Origin: an uncultured Flavobacteriales bacterium
GTDB lineage: Bacteria > Bacteroidota > Bacteroidia > Flavobacteriales > BACL11
NCBI GenBank assembly: GCA_913063045.1
Contig: CAJXYM010000008.1
Span: forward strand, 1-60,162
Direction of reading: 5' to 3'
DNA length: 60,162 bases
The notes under the pieces were generated by a model. It was not told the DNA's origin and ran no database searches. It was given only the letters and a program-made list of their open reading frames with translations. Below are positions 18,539 to 25,649 of this stretch, one piece after another. The stretch's first letter is position 1. Every line of letters starts with the position of its first letter. The position numbers and the translations under genes were made by a program.

Positions 18539-19147
18539 TTAACGTCTTTTCTTAAATTTCTTTTTGTAGTTAGGAGTTGTAGTTGTAGTGTTTTTAGCTA
18601 CAGAATCAGATTTTATAAATTCAAAATCGTCTGCTAATTTTAGTTCATTATTACATAATTGACCTAAATGTAATTTTATAGTCTCATTATTTACTGAATT
18701 CTTATTAAATAAAAGGTAAGATTTTTTCATGTGATTAGCTATCATGCCAGTCATAATTTCTCTTTCTCTTCCTATTTCAAGTTTTCTTGCTAATTCAATC
18801 ATCCCTTCTAAAGTTGATCCATAAAAAGGAAATTTTACTTTAGTTTTTGGGTACTCCATTTTATTTGGCTTAGCCTGAAGTTTTTCTATTTCTGGAAGTG
18901 GGTAAGGAGACTCAGTGTCTAATTTAAAATCTGACATTATAAAAAGGTGATCCCAAAGTTTATGTGTAAATTCCTTAACATCTCTAAGGTGAGGATTCAT
19001 CTGTCCCATAAATTGGATAATAGACTGAACACATTTTGTTTTTTCTTCTTTATCTTCAAGACTAGTTGCATGTGCAACCATTTTCTGTACATGTCTTCCG
19101 TATTCGGGTATTATTAGCTCGTCACGGTCCGTATTATATTCCATCAT
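18539..19147 (-). CDS. DUF4290 family protein
   Basis: A 202-residue cytosolic protein beginning MMEYNTDRDELIIPEYGRHVQKMV; either of two adjacent ATG codons may be used. It is helical in appearance, with INPH-like MGQMNPHLRDVKEFTHKLWDHLFIMSDF in the middle and a strongly basic C-terminal tail (KKKFKKRR). It matches DUF4290, a Bacteroidota-restricted family that I recall lying next to murA. Function is unknown; the conserved link with murA and the basic tail suggest a role tied to cell-wall synthesis or to RNA/ribosome binding. Confidence 0.8.
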   Translation of the reverse strand: MMEYNTDRDELIIPEYGRHVQKMVAHATSLEDKEEKTKCVQSIIQFMGQMNPHLRDVKEFTHKLWDHLFIMSDFKLDTESPYPLPEIEKLQAKPNKMEYPKTKVKFPFYGSTLEGMIELARKLEIGREREIMTGMIANHMKKSYLLFNKNSVNNETIKLHLGQLCNNELKLADDFEFIKSDSVAKNTTTTTPNYKKKFKKRR

Positions 19148-19161
19148 AAATTTCTTTAATA

Positions 19162-19169
19162 CAAAGGTA
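19162..19169 (-). promoter_or_regulatory. -7 element (TACCTTTG) for the DUF4290-murA transcript
   Basis: Minus-strand TACCTTTG is an exact TAnnTTTG match 14 bases before the DUF4290 start codon. The expected -33 position falls inside the preceding terminator and holds no TTG, so the assignment is partial. Confidence 0.4.
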
Positions 19170-19171
19170 CT

Positions 19172-19210
19172 AAAAAAAACCAGCTCCTAAGTTAAAGAGC
19201 TGGTTTTAAG
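19172..19210 (-). terminator. Intrinsic terminator after the thiamin TonB receptor
   Basis: Stem AAACCAGCTC/GAGCTGGTTT (19177-19186 with 19197-19206) around a 10-base loop, with a T-run on the minus strand beyond the stem. It lies 27 bases past the receptor stop codon and separates it from DUF4290-murA. Confidence 0.88.
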
Positions 19211-19232
19211 ATTAAATACTGACTAATTAAAT

Positions 19233-21431
19233 TTAGAAGCCTAATGTTAATCCTACTAGATAGTTTCTTGTTGCTTCAGGAAAATATCCCGCCATGTTGT
19301 AACGAGTATCTGAATCCTTGGTAACATAATGATCGTCATCTCTTGGGTCGTAACCTTCAGAAATAAATCTATAAAGCCAAGCATTACTAACATATTCGCT
19401 ATCAAATAAATTATTTATCTGAACACTTAATTTAGCATACTGAAATATTTTGCTATTAAAATTATAGGTGATCCTTAGACTACTGACTAAATAATCATCT
19501 AACTTTCTATCTTGAGATGAGGTGTTGTCAATAAACTGTTCTCCAACATATTTAGAAATAAAATTTGTAGATAAATTATTATTATGATTGTATGTGAATT
19601 GTGATGACCAAATTATATTAGGAGAAAATGCTAAATCAGTATTGCTATACGTAACCTCTTCTTGTCCCCATGTGTCCCAGTTATCAATAAATTGAATAAA
19701 GGTATCTACTTTGTTTTCGCTTAAAGTCATGTTTCCTGCCCATGCAAACTTTTTATTTAATGCTATGCTCCCCTCAATTTCTACACCTCTTCTAAAAGAT
19801 TTTTTCACATTCTCGCTAGTGAAATATCCTACATCATTAATTTCACCAGTTTTAATAAGTTGGTTGTCGTAATTCATGAGATAAAAATTTGCATTAAATC
19901 TCAGTTTATTATTGTTGTATTTAAAACCAATTTCTGTATCATATAGTGTTTCATGAACAGGTCTGGAGTTAGGGCTACTCTCAACATAATCACTTCTGTT
20001 TGGTTCTTTATTTCCAACTGCAAATGAGCCGTAAATTAATTGTTGATCACTAAGCTTATGATTAAGGCCAAACTTAGGATTGAAAAATTCTAGAGTAACA
20101 TTTTGCATTCCAATATTTCCATCATTATCATTGCCTTTAAACTCATAGTCAATATTTCTGCTTTGTAAATCTAAAAACAAAGAGGTGTTTTCAGTAGATT
20201 GATAATTAGCTTTTATAAATAAATTATTATCGTATTTAGTTGCTATATTTTTATAGTACTGATGGTTAAAAGACCCATTACTTGCGTACTGCGCCCAGAT
20301 TACATTACCATAGTGCTGTCCACTGTAAATATTATTAGCTCCACCAATTGTTAAATTTATTTTATTCGTTTTATGATTTAATGAATACGTTATTCCTGAA
20401 AAATCGTTGTTTAGCCACTTTCTTCTAATAAGGTCTGTAGAGGATATGGTGTCATTCCCAATTAAGATATTAGAAAGTCCATAGTCTAATAAATCTTGTC
20501 CTAATTTTTCTTGTTCATAATATCCTTCCCCATGTGTGTAGTGTGTTGCAACATTTATATTAGTTTTTGGATTTAACTGCTCGCTATAATGTAGTTGATA
20601 ATGAGTCTGATTATAGTTGTCAACTTCGTTTTCGTAGGTGTAACTATTGTAAGTTCTATTAGTGTCTAGATATCTTTGAGGAACTCCATTCCAAGCTTGA
20701 TAAGTTCTTTCATGACCAGAGAAAATAATACCTTTTAAAACAGATTTTTTACCAAAATAAGAGCCTTGAAGATAAAGAGATTCTAGATCAGATGAAGCTC
20801 TGTCCATATAGCCATTAGAAGTAATTTTAGATAGCCTTGCATCAAATGCGAATTTATTATTTATTAAGCCTGAGCCAAACTCTATGTTGTTTTTTTGAGT
20901 ATTGTAAGAGCCTATACTGTTATTAGTAATTGTATATGCTTTTTGGTTTAAGCCCATTGTTTTTAAATTTATACTTGCCCCAAATGCAGCTGCACCATTT
21001 GTAGAAGTTCCTACCCCTCTTTGTATTTGAATATTATCTAATGAAGATGCGAAATCTGGCATATTTACCCACCACACACCTTGACTTTCAGAGTCATTTA
21101 ATGGAATACCGTTTATTGTAACATTTATTCTAGAGGCATCAGATCCCCTAATTCTAAAGCCTGTATAGCCAACTCCAGCACCAGCGTCAGAGGTAGTGAC
21201 AACAGATGGAGTGAGAGAAATTAGATAGGGTAAGTCTTGACCTAAATTAGCATTCTCTATTTCAGATTTTGATAAATTAGTAAATGCCATTGGAGTTTTA
21301 GCATTTGCTCTTAATGAATTTACACTTACCTCATCTAAAGTCTTTTTTAAAGTTATAGAGTCTTGCTTTTGAGCCAATACAAGAATTGGAACACAAAAAA
21401 TAAGTATTAGTAATTGGATTTTTTTGACCAT
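19233..21431 (-). CDS. TonB-dependent outer-membrane receptor, probable thiamin transporter
   Basis: A 732-residue protein with a signal peptide ending VLAQ, no N-terminal carboxypeptidase-like domain, a plug domain from about residue 30 to 165 (FRIRGSDASRINVTINGIPLNDSESQGVWW, IQRGVGTSTNGAAAFGASINL) and a 22-strand barrel that ends LVGLTLGF. Its leader carries a TPP riboswitch, so it is controlled by thiamin pyrophosphate; this is the known pattern for the outer-membrane thiamin receptor (OMR1 type) of Bacteroidota. Upstream on the same strand are a PnuC-type permease and a thiamin-binding-fold protein, consistent with a complete route across both membranes. The plug residues typical for the family are all in place. 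Confidence 0.9.
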   Translation of the reverse strand: MVKKIQLLILIFCVPILVLAQKQDSITLKKTLDEVSVNSLRANAKTPMAFTNLSKSEIENANLGQDLPYLISLTPSVVTTSDAGAGVGYTGFRIRGSDASRINVTINGIPLNDSESQGVWWVNMPDFASSLDNIQIQRGVGTSTNGAAAFGASINLKTMGLNQKAYTITNNSIGSYNTQKNNIEFGSGLINNKFAFDARLSKITSNGYMDRASSDLESLYLQGSYFGKKSVLKGIIFSGHERTYQAWNGVPQRYLDTNRTYNSYTYENEVDNYNQTHYQLHYSEQLNPKTNINVATHYTHGEGYYEQEKLGQDLLDYGLSNILIGNDTISSTDLIRRKWLNNDFSGITYSLNHKTNKINLTIGGANNIYSGQHYGNVIWAQYASNGSFNHQYYKNIATKYDNNLFIKANYQSTENTSLFLDLQSRNIDYEFKGNDNDGNIGMQNVTLEFFNPKFGLNHKLSDQQLIYGSFAVGNKEPNRSDYVESSPNSRPVHETLYDTEIGFKYNNNKLRFNANFYLMNYDNQLIKTGEINDVGYFTSENVKKSFRRGVEIEGSIALNKKFAWAGNMTLSENKVDTFIQFIDNWDTWGQEEVTYSNTDLAFSPNIIWSSQFTYNHNNNLSTNFISKYVGEQFIDNTSSQDRKLDDYLVSSLRITYNFNSKIFQYAKLSVQINNLFDSEYVSNAWLYRFISEGYDPRDDDHYVTKDSDTRYNMAGYFPEATRNYLVGLTLGF

Positions 21432-21472
21432 TTTAGTTGTTTTAAATTATATTAATATACTAAAAGGGAGCA

Positions 21473-21494
21473 AGTAAAAATAAGTTTTTTTACT
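21473..21494 (-). promoter_or_regulatory. AT-rich hairpin between TPP aptamer and receptor start
   Basis: Stem AGTAAAAA/TTTTTACT with loop AACTTA on the minus strand, starting right after the riboswitch aptamer. No GC-rich stem with a T-run follows, so a classical terminator is not supported. It, or alternative pairing of ACTTGC (21475-21470) with GCAAGT on the 5' side of the aptamer (21579-21574), may form the expression platform. Confidence 0.4.
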
Positions 21495-21575
21495 CAAATT
21501 TCCTTGCTAGAATTACCTAGCCAGGTTCAATGGGTATAATCTCAGCCTTAGTTTTTTGGCACCCCCTTTTTTAAC
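21490..21575 (-). promoter_or_regulatory. TPP (thiamin pyrophosphate) riboswitch
   Basis: Read on the minus strand the leader contains the conserved thi-box blocks in order: GGGGGTGCC (21566-21558), GGCTGAGA, then TTATACCCATTGAACCTG, the P5 hairpin GCTAGGTAATTCTAGC, and AAGGAAA (ending at 21499). These match the aptamer core including the CUGAGA pyrimidine-binding loop and the pyrophosphate-binding helix. It lies about 60 bases upstream of the TonB receptor start and on the same strand, so thiamin pyrophosphate would turn receptor expression down. The 3' boundary of P1 is approximate. Confidence 0.95.
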
Positions 21576-21598
21576 TTGCGCAAAATTATAAAATGCTT

Positions 21599-22105
21599 TT
21601 AGATAAAAAAGTTATTTATCTTTTTTATTGCTTTTTCTGTTCTTTGATCTTTGTCTATGATTATGAAAGAGTGTTTCAATGAAAGTAATTCTTTTTTATA
21701 TAATTCAAAAAGAATATCGCGCTCAAACTTACTTTCTCTTAAAGGATCAAACTCCCATTTAATATCTGGTTTACATAATAGGTAAAGACGTTTCTCTTTT
21801 TTCTGCTCCTCTATTTTTTCTACTATCCATTTGTCACATCTTTTAAATTTATATTCTGACCAGATTTTTATTGTGATAAGGTCAGTATCACAAATAAGAA
21901 ATTTTTGTTTTAAATTATTGTGTTCATTTTCCCATTGTTTTTGCGCAATTTTCAATAAATCTTCAATTATATAGCTCCTATTAAGTGATTTAATATAATC
22001 TCTTGCGTATTCATTATTAAATAAACTGTTATAGTGAAGAGATAAATCTTCGCTTAATGTGGTTTTACCACTGCATTCAGGTCCTGTAATAATAACTTTA
22101 TTCAT
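21599..22105 (-). CDS. NadR-like P-loop kinase, candidate thiamin or nucleoside kinase
   Basis: A 168-residue cytosolic protein with Walker A GPECSGKTTL at residues 8-17, NEYARDYI at about 36, a Walker B-like FLICDTDLITIKIW near 67-80, and a LID-type segment ending in DPLRES. These match the ribosylnicotinamide kinase half of NadR, here stand-alone without the adenylyltransferase domain. The gene overlaps the PnuC-type permease gene by 8 bases, and a TPP riboswitch lies directly downstream in front of the thiamin receptor. In PnuC systems transport is driven by phosphorylation after uptake, so this enzyme may trap thiamin as phosphate, or nicotinamide riboside if the permease is of that type. 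No search was done to settle which. Confidence 0.7.
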   Translation of the reverse strand: MNKVIITGPECSGKTTLSEDLSLHYNSLFNNEYARDYIKSLNRSYIIEDLLKIAQKQWENEHNNLKQKFLICDTDLITIKIWSEYKFKRCDKWIVEKIEEQKKEKRLYLLCKPDIKWEFDPLRESKFERDILFELYKKELLSLKHSFIIIDKDQRTEKAIKKINNFFI

Positions 22106-22694
22106 TTTTTTGCAGTATATGGTTCCATTTTATAAATCCTATAACAGCAATAAAGGTATAGAAAAGGAAAAGTAATGCTGTGAGATGAAGTTCTCTGCTG
22201 AAGTATAAATAGATTGAAATAGCATCAATTATTATAAAATATAGCCAGTTAGATAAAATCTTTTTAACAACCATGTAAGTAGCAAATATGCTAAATACAG
22301 TTGTTAATGAATCAATAATTGGCATTTTAGCATTGGTATATGTGCTGAATAAAAACCCTAACAAAAATGTTGTTAATGAGCCCGCTAATATTATTAGTAA
22401 ATGGGTATTAATCTTCCATTCGCTAATTTGTAAAGGTTTATTGTTGTTTGACCATGAAAAATATCCATATACGGCCATAAAAAAATAGAAAACTTGTAAT
22501 CCTGTTTCAGCATATAGTTGGGCGTTATAGCATATGTATACATAGATACTAACACTAATAATTGCTGCTGCCCAGCACCAGATGTTTTCTTTAGCTGCGA
22601 GAATAACATATGCCAAGCTAAAAAATACAGCACAAGTTTCTAATAAACTCCAGTTAAAATCTATGGATTCTATTAATGTTATTAATTCAAGCAT
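22098..22694 (-). CDS. PnuC-family permease, probable thiamin transporter PnuT
   Basis: A 198-residue membrane protein with about seven predicted spans. It shows the PnuC family features: an N-terminal ETCAVFFSLAYVILAAKENIWCW segment, a following aromatic-rich span (YGYFSWSNNN) and a repeat-like second half with NWLYFIIIDAISIYLYFSRELHLTALLFLFYTFIAVIGFIKW. PnuC proteins carry nicotinamide riboside, while the PnuT branch carries thiamin. The neighbouring TPP-controlled receptor and thiamin-binding-fold gene favour thiamin. It starts 4 bases after the preceding gene and overlaps the kinase gene by 8 bases. Confidence 0.82.
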   Translation of the reverse strand: MLELITLIESIDFNWSLLETCAVFFSLAYVILAAKENIWCWAAAIISVSIYVYICYNAQLYAETGLQVFYFFMAVYGYFSWSNNNKPLQISEWKINTHLLIILAGSLTTFLLGFLFSTYTNAKMPIIDSLTTVFSIFATYMVVKKILSNWLYFIIIDAISIYLYFSRELHLTALLFLFYTFIAVIGFIKWNHILQKNE

Positions 22695-22698
22695 TGTA

Positions 22699-22959
22699 TT
22701 AAAAAATAGGAATTTCTTGCAAGTCAGAATTAATAATTTTCATATTAAAAACAATGCTTTTATTATTTTTAAAACTACTTTTAATTTCTTTGTTTAGAGC
22801 TTGAGATATATTATCATAATCACCAAATATCTGAGTGCTTATTCCATTAGTCTTTACAATTATTTCTGAGTGTTTTCTTAAATTTTTTATAAATTCAATA
22901 ATTGGTTCTTTGAATTCTTTTTTTAGAGGGTACATTGAAATTTCAACCGAACACTTCAT
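22699..22959 (-). CDS. Thiamin-binding protein (MTH1187/YkoF-like fold)
   Basis: An 86-residue cytosolic protein with the ferredoxin-like pattern of the Thiamine_BP family: strand CSVEISMYPL, a helix to about residue 28, the motif GISTQIFGDYD (compare GMSTxIxGDYD in relatives), a second helix and strand. YkoF binds thiamin or its HMP moiety, and members sit next to thiamin transport genes. Here the gene lies 4 bases before the PnuC/PnuT gene and 10 bases after the GGGP synthase-like gene, supporting a soluble thiamin carrier or sensor role. Confidence 0.8.
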   Translation of the reverse strand: MKCSVEISMYPLKKEFKEPIIEFIKNLRKHSEIIVKTNGISTQIFGDYDNISQALNKEIKSSFKNNKSIVFNMKIINSDLQEIPIF

Positions 22960-22969
22960 TTTTCAATCT

Positions 22970-23707
22970 TTAAAATTTATGAATGGCATTTGAGATTTCT
23001 GCAATTAGCCCATTTTCTTTTTCAATTGCGTTGCCCACAACAATAATATCAGCGCCAGCTTGGCAGTTCTCAATAGCTTTTTTGGCAGATTTTATTCCTC
23101 CGCCAACGATTAATGGAATTTCAGTTTGGCTACTCACAGAATGGATCATTTCCTCAGAAATTGATTTTTGAGCTCCACTTCCTCCGTCTAAAAAAATCAT
23201 CTTCATTCCTAACATTTCTCCAGCCATTGCAGTAGCAGTAGCTATATTTTTTTTATTGTGTGGTATTGGTGTAGTATTGCTCATATATGAAGCTGTTGTA
23301 GCTTGACCACTTTCAATCAGCATGTATCCAGTGGAGATTACCTCTAGATTTGTTTGTTTAAGAATAGGAGCGCTGATTACTTGTTGCCCAATCAGCATAT
23401 GAGGATTTCTTCCTGAAATTAAAGAGAGAAATAATATTCCATCTGCTTTGTTACTTACTTGCATTGCATTGCCAGGAAATAGTAAAACTGGGATGTCACT
23501 ATTAGACTTTATGATCTTTATGCATTGCTCAAGACTGTCTTCTAGTAGAAGACTACCACCGACAAAAAATAAATCTACTTTCGCCTTATTAGCTTTCTTA
23601 ATTGTAGTAATTAGTTGGCTCTCAGCTTGTTTGTCTGGGTCAATTAAAAGAGCAAAAAGCTTAGATTGTTTTTTTTTGCTAGATAGTATATGAGAGTATA
23701 TGTCCAT
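22970..23707 (-). CDS. Geranylgeranylglyceryl/heptaprenylglyceryl phosphate synthase family protein
   Basis: A 245-residue TIM-barrel protein of the PcrB/GGGPS family, which joins a polyprenyl diphosphate to glycerol-1-phosphate. Visible signatures are FALLIDPDKQ near residue 20, FFVGGSLLLEDSL near 48, PVLLFPGNAMQVS near 75, YMLIESGQATTASYMSNTTPIP near 130, FLDGGSGAQKSI near 175 and LIVGGGIKSAKKA near 205. Bacterial group II members form hexamers; their products in Bacteroidota are not well defined. It lies between the PPTase gene (13 bases) and the thiamin-binding protein gene, likely one transcript. Confidence 0.9.
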   Translation of the reverse strand: MDIYSHILSSKKKQSKLFALLIDPDKQAESQLITTIKKANKAKVDLFFVGGSLLLEDSLEQCIKIIKSNSDIPVLLFPGNAMQVSNKADGILFLSLISGRNPHMLIGQQVISAPILKQTNLEVISTGYMLIESGQATTASYMSNTTPIPHNKKNIATATAMAGEMLGMKMIFLDGGSGAQKSISEEMIHSVSSQTEIPLIVGGGIKSAKKAIENCQAGADIIVVGNAIEKENGLIAEISNAIHKF

Positions 23708-23720
23708 TAATTTTTTTATT

Positions 23721-24302
23721 CTAACCGCAAAAATACACTAAAAAGTGATTGTTTATTTTGAGGTAATCTAAAACGAATGATTTCTCTCTAAATTTTGCGT
23801 TTATTTTTTTTTCAGAACCTTCACTTATTTTAATAATACTTATATCTTTTTTAAAATCAATTTTACCTTTTTGAAACCATTTGTAAATAACTTCTTTAGT
23901 GCTCCAAATAAGCGTTGCTAATTCCTTTGAAATATTTTTTGCTAAAAATAAAGTGTCAAATCGTTCATAAACATCTAAAGTTTTTCGTGAAATTTTTTCA
24001 ATATCAATACCACATCTCTTATTGCTGATTATTATCGCTATCAATTCCTTCGAATGAGAAATAGATATGAATTTATCATTTGAAATTATTGGAGCTCCAT
24101 GTGAATTATATGATATTGTATCGTTTTCATTCATATGATTTAATAAGAGATCTCTTGCAAGTATTTCAAGAGCTCTTTGTTTGCTTTTGATATTTTTTTC
24201 TAGTAATAATTTATTAATATCTTTTATTGAAAAATTTGCTTTTTCAATTTTCATTACTGCTAAAGATCTTACATTATCTTGATCAAATAATATCATACTC
24301 AT
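23721..24302 (-). CDS. 4'-phosphopantetheinyl transferase family protein
   Basis: A 193-residue Sfp/AcpT-like enzyme that attaches the phosphopantetheine arm of CoA to carrier proteins. The Mg2+-binding motif CGIDIEKIS (near residue 95) and the helix [11 protein letters not shown] (near 140) are both present, as is ISISHSKE earlier, the substrate-binding loop. Length suits the pseudodimeric Sfp type. It is divergent from ahcY, with 54 bases between the start codons, and heads the minus-strand block that runs into the thiamin uptake genes. Confidence 0.9.
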
Positions 24303-24303
24303 A

Positions 24304-24333
24304 TTGCTAAATTAAGAATATTAGCTATCTTTG
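24304..24333 (+). promoter_or_regulatory. Bacteroidota promoter for ahcY
   Basis: TTG (24304-24306), exactly 19 bases, then TATCTTTG (24326-24333): a full match in sequence and spacing to the TTG-N19-TAnnTTTG promoter of Bacteroidota. It lies 24 bases before the ahcY ATG, the best promoter in the window. Confidence 0.8.
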
Positions 24334-24356
24334 CCGCCATAATTAAAATTTATAAA

Positions 24357-25649
24357 ATGAACTATAAGGTTAAAGATATATCACTCGCTGATTGGGGAAG
24401 GAAGGAAATTACATTAGCTGAGTCTGAGATGCCGGGATTAATGTCACTTAGAGAAGAATTTGGCGATAGTAACCCTCTCAAAGGAGCAAGAATTGCAGGT
24501 TGTTTACATATGACAATTCAAACAGCTGTACTAATTGAAACCCTAGTTCATTTAGGTGCCGAGGTAACATGGTCATCTTGTAATATTTTCTCTACTCAAG
24601 ACCAAGCTGCTGCTGCCATAGCCGCTACAGGTGTTCCTGTTTTTGCATGGAAAGGAATGAATGAGCAAGAGTTTGATTGGTGTATTGAGAAGACTTTAAC
24701 CTCTTTTAAAGATGATAAGCCTTTGAATATGATTCTTGATGATGGAGGTGATTTAACAAATATGGTTTTAGACAGATATCCTGATTTAACTGCTGGAATA
24801 AAAGGTTTGTCAGAAGAGACAACAACTGGAGTTCATAGATTGTATGAAAGAATGGAAAAAGGTACGCTAACACTTCCTGCAATAAATATTAACGACTCTG
24901 TAACAAAATCTAAATTTGATAATAAATATGGCTGTAAGGAGTCTTTAGTTGATGCTATACGAAGAGCTACCGATGTTATGATGGCTGGAAAAGTTGCTGT
25001 TGTAGCGGGATACGGAGATGTTGGTAAAGGTTCAGCTGCTTCTTTGCAAGGTGCTGGAGCAAGAGTTATTGTGACGGAAATTGATCCTATTTGTGCGCTG
25101 CAAGCTGCAATGGATGGTTTTGCAGTTAAGAAAATGAGCTCAGTTGTTGGTGATGCTGATATTATTGTTACAACAACAGGAAATAAAGATATTATTCAGG
25201 GGCATCATTTTGAAGCAATGAAAGATAAGGTGATAGTATGTAATATTGGTCATTTTGATAATGAAATTGATGTTTCATGGTTAAATGATAATTGGGGACA
25301 CACAAAAAACACAATTAAGCCTCAAGTTGATATGTATACTGTTGATGGGAAAGATATTATATTGCTTGCTGAGGGTCGTTTAGTTAATCTTGGTTGTGCC
25401 ACAGGACATCCTTCTTTTGTTATGTCTAATTCATTCACAAATCAGGTTTTAGCTCAACTAGAATTATGGAACAACACTGATAGTTATGAAAATAAAGTTT
25501 ACATGCTTCCAAAGTATTTAGATGAAAAAGTAGCTAGGCTTCATTTATCTAAAATTGGTGTTGAGCTTGAGGAGCTAAGAAAAGATCAGGCTGATTATAT
25601 TGGTGTTAAGGTTGAAGGGCCGTATAAGCCTGAATATTACAGGTATTAA
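24357..25649 (+). CDS. ahcY: Adenosylhomocysteinase
   Basis: Hydrolyses S-adenosylhomocysteine to adenosine and homocysteine, closing the methyl cycle. The 430-residue protein shows [31 protein letters not shown], the catalytic [18 protein letters not shown] segment, the NAD-binding loop [13 protein letters not shown] near residue 220 and the C-terminal YKPEYYRY, which reaches into the neighbouring subunit's cofactor site. It is complete. It has its own promoter and ends convergently with a lipoprotein gene, the two stop codons overlapping. Confidence 0.98.

Follow-up and report, generated by a model that had tools for sequence, protein, structure and literature searches.

A predicted thiamine-salvage locus of an uncultured Flavobacteriales bacterium, with a putative thiamine kinase related to NadR and a TPP aptamer at the outer-membrane receptor

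The window, a 60,162-nt stretch from an uncultured Flavobacteriales bacterium (GCA_913063045.1, contig CAJXYM010000008.1), carries what is likely the thiamine-salvage locus of an auxotroph, in which a kinase would make thiamine monophosphate (TMP) and an aptamer would control the outer-membrane receptor (Table 1). Judged from sequence comparison, the kinase is very probably a thiamine kinase, homologous to the kinase domain of NadR and not to TPK. As we picture the route, thiamine would cross the outer membrane through the TonB receptor, PnuT would pass it over the inner membrane, the NadR-like kinase would convert it to TMP and so trap the vitamin in the cell, and ThiL, encoded elsewhere in the genome, would take TMP to TPP. 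By binding the aptamer, which would lie at the 5' end of the receptor mRNA, TPP would in turn lower receptor expression, with PnuT and the kinase transcribed from what would be aptamer-free promoters. It also seems fairly likely that the short NadR-like kinase is a third, unrelated thiamine-phosphorylating enzyme beside TPK and ThiK, that thiamine-auxotrophic Bacteroidota outside the lineages with TPK rely on it as their standard salvage enzyme, and that in those auxotrophs thiamine control is exerted at the outer membrane alone via an independent promoter-aptamer-receptor unit.

B1 need and uptake in marine and gut microbes are judged from gene lists. One such survey lists ThiL and a receptor for many Bacteroidota, and the enzyme making TMP is absent from that list (PMC12236431); another reports Bacteroidota clusters in which the described systems for synthesis and transport are missing (PMC10881298). 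Naming the kinase would fill the TMP gap and correct 'NadR-like' annotations, and the locus would be a clear case of a riboswitch on the outer-membrane step only, with the downstream trapping step free.

Table 1. Features of the locus, in window coordinates
Feature	Coordinates	Strand	Basis or remark
Terminator-like hairpin, 3' of receptor gene	19176..19207	-	13 pairs + T run
TonB-dependent outer-membrane receptor, 732 aa, omr1/OMthi-like role	19233..21431	-	Pfam plug + barrel
Predicted hairpin, UUUUAGU (21465-21459) with ACUAAAA (21437-21431)	21431..21465	-	fold prediction
Predicted anti-aptamer helix, 3' strand (CUCCCUUUU)	21462..21470	-	fold prediction
TPP riboswitch aptamer (RF00059), predicted	21483..21576	-	49.2 bits; between kinase and TonB receptor
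Predicted anti-aptamer helix, 5' strand (AAAAGGGGG)	21562..21570	-	fold prediction; overlaps aptamer helix P2
Predicted sigma-A -7 box (TAATTTTG)	21581..21588	-	consensus match; transcription would start a few nt 5' of the aptamer
NadR-kinase-like P-loop kinase, 168 aa, predicted thiamine kinase	21599..22105	-	AAA_28 (PF13521) 94 bits, cut-off 27
PnuC-family permease, 198 aa, predicted PnuT (thiamine)	22098..22694	-	PF04973 181 bits
YkoF/thiamine-binding-fold protein, 86 aa	22699..22959	-	Pfam YkoF 23.8 bits, cut-off 21
GGGP synthase-like (GGGPS/PcrB) gene, neighbour	22970..23707	-	137 bits
PPTase-like gene, neighbour	23721..24302	-	ACPS 24.0 bits, just below cut-off 25

A row of thiamin-binding-fold protein, permease, NadR-like kinase and TonB receptor on the minus strand had been described in an earlier note made from the letters of this DNA, and it is borne out by the gene calls and family matches. 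Reading from the PPTase-like gene through GGGPS, the YkoF gene, the permease and the kinase to the receptor, the gaps are 13, 10, 4, -8 and 167 nt, the only wide one being between kinase and receptor. The YkoF-fold protein reaches 20.7 bits against Thiamine_BP, below the cut-off of 24.9. The permease belongs to the PF04973 family and matches 4QTN by sequence; its NCBIfam name is PnuC (85.1 bits, cut-off 42.45). From its context we infer that it is a PnuT carrying thiamine, not nicotinamide riboside, and thiamine would also be the substrate of the TonB receptor. The GGGPS and PPTase-like genes are probably outside the thiamine function.

The AAA_28 match places the kinase in the NadR kinase superfamily. 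At 168 aa it does not have the two domains, NMN adenylyltransferase and kinase, by which NadR is defined, and TIGR01526 (NadR) matches in the kinase part only, with 63 of the 341 bits needed. The catalytic domain of TPK, PF04263, does not match it. Its AlphaFold model has a pLDDT of 95.1, and Foldseek finds the best PDB matches to NadR kinase domains (TM 0.83, 8x7f), followed by thymidylate kinases. The best NCBIfam models are NadR in all 42 rows of the kinase comparison, with the window kinase far below cut-off; no NCBIfam or Pfam model gives the short NadR-like kinase a thiamine-kinase name, and we found no such proposal in the papers searched. What the window shares with the NadR kinase domain and PnuC is the kinase fold, the P-loop and the pairing of a facilitator with a kinase that traps the substrate, whereas the NMN adenylyltransferase domain is missing and the context is one of thiamine. 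Five genomes of the class encode a full NadR (NMNAT plus kinase) beside the short kinase, so in these genomes the latter is not just the NadR. G003, a genome of the same genus as the window, has a broken kinase frame. A kinase tree was rejected as a means of dating the gain of the aptamer because the protein is too short and the tree poorly resolved.

ThiL needs TMP. Among the 52 genomes of family f1, which are MAGs or single-cell genomes, many of them incomplete (15 of the 52 reach 90% completeness with contamination of 5% or less), ThiL is over cut-off in 42, the kinase is found in 46, PnuT in 45 and a TPP aptamer in 44. No ThiC, no TPK and no ThiE over cut-off was found in any of the 52 by family-model searches that covered these three enzymes, gave matches in control genomes and would miss a very diverged enzyme. 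This leaves the ThiL of f1 with no known source of TMP, a gap that the kinase would fill. In a sample of 197 genomes of the class, the ThiE-negative ones have TPK only (29), the kinase only (91) or neither (6), and the ThiE-positive ones neither (50), the kinase (11), TPK (6) or both (4), at a ThiE threshold chosen after the scores were seen, a laxer one making more kinase genomes ThiE-positive; at any threshold tried, TPK and the kinase never occur together in ThiE-negative genomes. Ten families contain both ThiE states, and among their TPK-negative genomes the kinase is present in 27 of 28 that are ThiE-negative and in 5 of 19 that are ThiE-positive (stratified permutation, p 1.5e-4). It is the complementary distribution of the kinase with TPK and ThiE, together with gene context, that leads us to predict a thiamine kinase, converting thiamine to TMP. 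Kinase, TPK and ThiE do occur together in four genomes of one genus (g17 of f3); a poorly resolved tree groups their kinases near the kinase domain of NadR, and these kinases carry a DUF4301 domain or lie next to one.

The kinase comes directly after PnuT in 83 of 105 class loci, and the order kinase-[aptamer]-TonB is found in 43 of 46 family loci. A TPP aptamer lies 3' of the kinase in 23 of the 105 class loci, all with a TonB receptor and 10 without PnuT, and in 52 of 80 named-collection loci, taken from the best 80 of 497 relatives, 18 of those 52 having no PnuT before the kinase; upstream of the kinase there is none in the 105 class-wide loci and none in the 80 named-collection loci. The search for these aptamers used a core pattern, by which variants can be missed, and many of the 80 named-collection relatives are the same f1 genomes under other handles, so that the sets overlap. 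By that pattern, 82 of the 105 class-wide kinases have no TPP aptamer close by. The earlier note had joined permease and kinase to the PPTase and GGGPS genes upstream, which describes the window but is not conserved: in several relatives GGGPS and PnuT stand apart with a divergent gene, ChaN-like by eye, between them, and for this reason the six-gene row was rejected as one functional operon. In most of the relatives so split, a box of the kind described below precedes PnuT. The YkoF/thiamine-binding-fold gene stands before PnuT in part of the family only.

The locus might instead be an ordinary nicotinamide riboside system, PnuC importing nicotinamide riboside and the kinase making NMN, with the receptor and aptamer as an unrelated neighbour. 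PnuC-NadR clustering is known (PMC7221760), NCBIfam calls the permease PnuC, and the best models and structures for the kinase are NadR. We nevertheless find this unlikely, since the kinase adjoins the TPP aptamer and TonB receptor even at the 18 and 10 loci without PnuT, excludes TPK in ThiE-negative genomes and occurs beside NadR in five genomes, and since the ThiL of f1 would be left without a substrate. In some lineages the PnuC-kinase pair could serve nicotinamide riboside. Import of TMP itself, with ThiL alone finishing the pathway and the kinase doing something else, would leave the mutual replacement of kinase and TPK unexplained, and PnuT relatives are known carriers of unphosphorylated thiamine; we regard it as very unlikely. 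In its favour, ThiL is nearly universal (over cut-off in 193 of the 197 class genomes), and published surveys take ThiL together with a transporter to be enough for salvage (PMC12236431). A pyrophosphokinase that, like TPK, turns thiamine directly into TPP would suit an enzyme that stands in for TPK in its distribution, but is scarcely credible for a fold of NMP and nucleoside kinases, which transfer one phosphate, in auxotrophs that keep a ThiL for which they would have no need.

Our preferred reading, a kinase supplying TMP to ThiL, can be set beside known routes. E. coli converts thiamine to TMP and then to TPP by ThiK and ThiL, and the fold of ThiK is aminoglycoside-phosphotransferase-like. 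The predicted chemistry of the window is the same, and its kinase, of another fold, would be an unrelated replacement of ThiK. For Bacteroides thetaiotaomicron, thiamine uptake has been described with OMthi (BT2390) and pnuT-tnr3 (BT2396-2397), and what it has in common with the window is a TPP riboswitch, a TonB-type transporter, PnuT and a thiamine-phosphorylating enzyme, predicted in our case (PMC5613172). In that description OMthi and pnuT-tnr3 either have a riboswitch each in front of them or make up a single operon, and the enzyme is Tnr3/TPK (PMC5613172); the window has an aptamer before the receptor only, and in place of TPK this bacterium would use the NadR-like kinase and ThiL. Accounts of marine Flavobacteriales give ThiL and a putative thiamine receptor with no biosynthesis genes (PMC12236431), and omr1 with a TPP riboswitch nearby (PMC10881298); the thiamine-to-TMP enzyme goes unnamed in their description of the pathway, and it is for this step that we propose the kinase.

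The aptamer scores below the Rfam gathering cut-off of 54.3 bits (E 1.2e-7 in 5.8 kb), and a whole-window Rfam scan at the gathering threshold lists tRNA alone and no TPP aptamer. The gathering cut-off is an annotation convention, not a biochemical feature. It is passed by the TPP aptamer in 3 of the 52 family genomes, P3 being short and P1 weak. Helices P2-P5 and the core GCUGAGA / GAACCUG / GGUAAU of RF00059 are present, the core invariant in 27 rows, and across the 27 family aptamers 95% of helix cells are paired, with 45 double compensatory cells, against 0-9 when the 3' partners are slid by 1-3 columns as a control. A chance match is excluded by this covariation and by the kept position. 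The earlier coordinates, 21490-21575, were nearly those of the profile match, and the claim that the aptamer sits in front of the receptor only is confirmed: no second TPP match, hence none upstream of PPTase, exists within 18900-24700, and the idea of an aptamer near PPTase governing the entire cluster is rejected. The match is also the only one in the 1.37 Mb genome, which is 85% complete and may lack a further copy. Together the sequence evidence supports a predicted TPP riboswitch that serves the receptor, not the permease or kinase.

In 44 of 47 cases the aptamer is preceded by a TAnnTTT[GA] box whose end lies 10-15 nt away, compared with 1.7% of random positions; the box resembles the Bacteroidota -7 box in consensus and position as given in PMC9723704 and PMC7366714; it would act as a promoter. 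A -33 TTG element at 15-23 nt spacing is found in 6 of 44 only and was rejected as a promoter part. Because the box precedes 44 of 47 aptamers, the riboswitch and the receptor seem to form a separate transcription unit, not a read-through product. An aptamer whose effect extends to the entire operon, perhaps by defining the 3' terminus of the PnuT-kinase mRNA or by releasing a small RNA, is suggested by its place in the window on the strand of the kinase, 23 nt past the kinase stop, where it could be co-transcribed. Against this stand its own -7 box at a fixed distance, the opposite-strand genes that separate aptamer and kinase in two relatives, L103 and L109, the joint move of receptor and aptamer to another contig in G031, where PnuT and kinase are left aptamer-free, and a box-plus-aptamer piece of ~200 nt copied before another gene in G003, and we consider such action decidedly unlikely. 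The boxes and the opposite-strand genes also argue that the receptor probably does not depend on read-through from a promoter at the PPTase end, and that receptor and riboswitch are probably a unit of their own.

Fold prediction suggests a translational switch in the window, in which AAAAGGGGG would have two alternative partners, one inside the aptamer and the other CUCCCUUUU ahead of the start codon. In the predicted aptamer-bound fold of the window and its closest relatives, the start codon of the receptor has its first base inside the hairpin at 21431-21465, and the direction of the switch would be OFF. Start-codon sequestration is unsupported family-wide, accessibility being lower in 5 and higher in 7 of 44 leaders, and an intrinsic terminator was rejected as the expression platform because the stretch from kinase to receptor yielded none. 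The flanks of the anti-aptamer helix covary weakly, with 10% of permutations doing as well, and this was rejected as proof; mean duplex energies are better than those of shuffles (mean z -1.3), with 10 of 44 below -2. Terminator-like hairpins number 3 in the region, with 1.8 expected in shuffles, and the one 3' of the receptor gene is the longest by far.

The locus runs along the minus strand from 24302 to 19233, in the order tabulated below. The row of uptake genes with an aptamer before the receptor, as noticed earlier from the sequence, is confirmed. From the PPTase-like gene down to the kinase the genes are tightly packed, with intergenic gaps of 13, 10, 4, and −8 nt; the kinase-receptor gap is 167 nt. 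In the most fitting interpretation, the locus serves thiamine salvage and includes a thiamine kinase that has so far gone unrecognised; for a computation this inference is strong.

Features of the locus, in order along the minus strand
Feature	Coordinates	Strand	Remark
PPTase-like gene		−	
GGGP synthase-like (GGGPS) gene		−	
YkoF/thiamine-binding-fold gene		−	small protein
PnuC-family permease gene (predicted PnuT)		−	
NadR-kinase-like gene	21599..22105	−	predicted thiamine kinase (thiamine to TMP)
TPP aptamer (RF00059)	21483..21576	−	
TonB-dependent receptor gene	19233..21431	−	outer membrane
DUF4290 gene, then murA	18539-19147		always 3' of the receptor throughout the family

ThiL converts TMP to TPP. 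In profile searches that each recovered their target in control genomes, ThiC, ThiE over cut-off, and TPK were found in none of the 52 family genomes, and ThiL over cut-off was found in 42. Since ThiL is kept and the other three are absent, its substrate is made by no known enzyme in these auxotrophs. The kinase is present in 46 of the 52 genomes, the permease in 45, and the TPP aptamer in 44. The same gap already appears in published work: one paper describes Flavobacteriales and Cytophagales MAGs having ThiL and omr1 without biosynthesis and terms this salvage (PMC12236431). In one family genome (G003), frame changes, either a lesion or an assembly error, interrupt the kinase reading frame, and the permease and receptor are intact.

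A class-wide sample of 197 genomes, all at least 90% complete except the window's own, contains the kinase in 106, TPK in 39, ThiL over cut-off in 193, and ThiE (E ≤ 1e-25) in 71. The 126 ThiE-negative genomes divide into 91 with the kinase only, 29 with TPK only, 6 with neither, and none with both, and this lack of overlap persists at laxer ThiE thresholds and without the three weakest kinase matches. The 71 ThiE-positive genomes comprise 50 without either gene, 11 with the kinase, 6 with TPK, and 4, all of one genus, with both. Shared ancestry accounts for part of the pattern, because kinase and TPK tend to mark different families. Within the ten families having both ThiE states, however, TPK-negative genomes carry the kinase in 27 of 28 ThiE-negative cases versus 5 of 19 ThiE-positive ones (stratified permutation p = 1.5e-4). 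A PnuT-like gene lies directly before 83 of 105 class kinases (window's excluded), and a full NadR accompanies the kinase in 5 class genomes. In genus g17 of family f3 (loci L242 to L245), the kinase reading frames exceed 700 aa, the L242 kinase is fused to a DUF4301 domain (671 bits), and the same genomes have TPK and ThiE. A TenI/ThiE-like gene, recognized by eye and by weak PF02581 matches, precedes PnuT in L250, L256, and L261, and follows the receptor on the opposite strand in L267. A kinase relative, 43% identical, occurs in a MAG titled Desulfobacteraceae bacterium (S07.Bin054, L195), by either transfer or a misbinned contig.

The AlphaFold model of the kinase has a mean pLDDT of 95.1 and a pTM of 0.89. 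Foldseek ranks NadR entries highest, 8x7f (TM 0.83), 6gyf, and 1lw7, followed by thymidylate and deoxynucleoside kinases. Across 42 relatives the invariant residues include G8, E10, G13, and K14 of the P-loop, along with E32, R35, D73, T74, W82, W117, D120, R123, and R155. NadR is the sole NCBIfam model for this kinase, matched by all 42 rows. A gut-genome survey names ThiK, ThiM, and ThiN as the enzymes for B1 salvage (PMC6593275), and in Bacteroides thetaiotaomicron OMthi and pnuT-tnr3 (Tnr3 being TPK) are each preceded by a TPP riboswitch, the three genes forming one operon in most of its gut relatives (PMC5613172). On a NadR-like or Bacteroidota thiamine kinase we found some related work and no relevant paper among the open-access papers searched. 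Published comparative genomics of prokaryotic thiamine metabolism may contain an earlier hint of such a kinase.

Comparing gene order in relatives, a check named by the earlier note, shows the placement before the receptor to be kept, with kinase, aptamer, and receptor in that order in 43 of 46 family loci read (L101-L145 and the window). The exceptions are L105, at a contig end, and L133 and L139, with no receptor after the kinase; the L139 genome has its receptor on a different contig, still with its own aptamer. Among the best 80 of 497 relatives from the named collection, 52 loci have the aptamer 3' of the kinase and none has it 5'; in 18 of those 52, mostly Saprospiraceae including Portibacter lacus (L219), the kinase is not directly preceded by a permease. 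The class sample gives 23 of 105 and none, respectively.

In 44 of 47 aptamers, a TAnnTTT[GA] motif is present with its end 10 to 15 nt upstream of the G run; for random positions in this DNA the figure is 355 of 20400. PMC9723704 and PMC7366714 describe TAnnTTTG as the −7 box for sigma-A in Flavobacterium and Bacteroides, with a position between −12 and −5 in F. psychrophilum. From the position of the box, the RNA start would fall a few nt ahead of the aptamer. Separate control of the outer step, as the earlier note proposed, is supported in modified form: the receptor appears to be transcribed as a separate unit. Genes on the opposite strand separate kinase from aptamer in L103 and L109, GGGPS from PnuT in L108, L112, L119, L135, and L139, and PPTase from PnuT in L118. 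Of 9 listed loci with an opposite-strand gene ahead of PnuT, 6 (L112, L117, L118, L135, L137, L139) carry a TAnnTTTG whose end is 10-25 nt upstream of the called PnuT start, and none lies within 25 nt of that start in L108, L113, and L119, where some starts may be mis-set.

The window aptamer scores 49.2 bits against the Rfam cut-off of 54.3, and is therefore absent from a default Rfam scan. Comparative alignment nevertheless shows it to be a structured RNA: over 27 family aptamers, 95% of cells in the named helices are paired, with 45 double compensatory cells in true register versus 0 to 9 when helix partners are slid. In the predicted free fold of the window leader (−33.2 kcal/mol), AAAAGGGGG pairs with CUCCCUUUU and P2 is broken. 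With the aptamer imposed, the fold is 2.3 kcal/mol less stable, and UUUUAGU can then form a helix with ACUAAAA at the start codon. These modeled folds fit a translational OFF switch, in which TPP binding would let that hairpin form at the receptor start codon and turn translation off. No intrinsic terminator was found between kinase and receptor. In 24 of 44 relatives, three or more of the last 4 Gs are paired to downstream sequence in the predicted free fold; the change in start-site accessibility between folds is inconsistent across the 44, and covariation of the anti-aptamer helix flanks is weak.

The window's own genome (1.37 Mb, 85% complete) has this one TPP match only. In G003, of the same genus, a copy of about 200 nt (L147:5466-5713) comprising kinase tail, −7 box, TPP aptamer with two changes in the conserved GGUAAU, and anti-aptamer precedes a gene for an unrelated, secreted hydrolase-like protein of 357 aa, whose esterase matches are weak and fall below cut-off. 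G006 has a strong TPP aptamer, at 69.9 bits, on a contig (C73, L148) that appears GC-richer than the family and is possibly contamination of this MAG. G044 and G046 (L149, L150) carry a second TPP aptamer, which has a −7 box of its own and precedes another TonB receptor; the L150 receptor has plug and barrel by Pfam.
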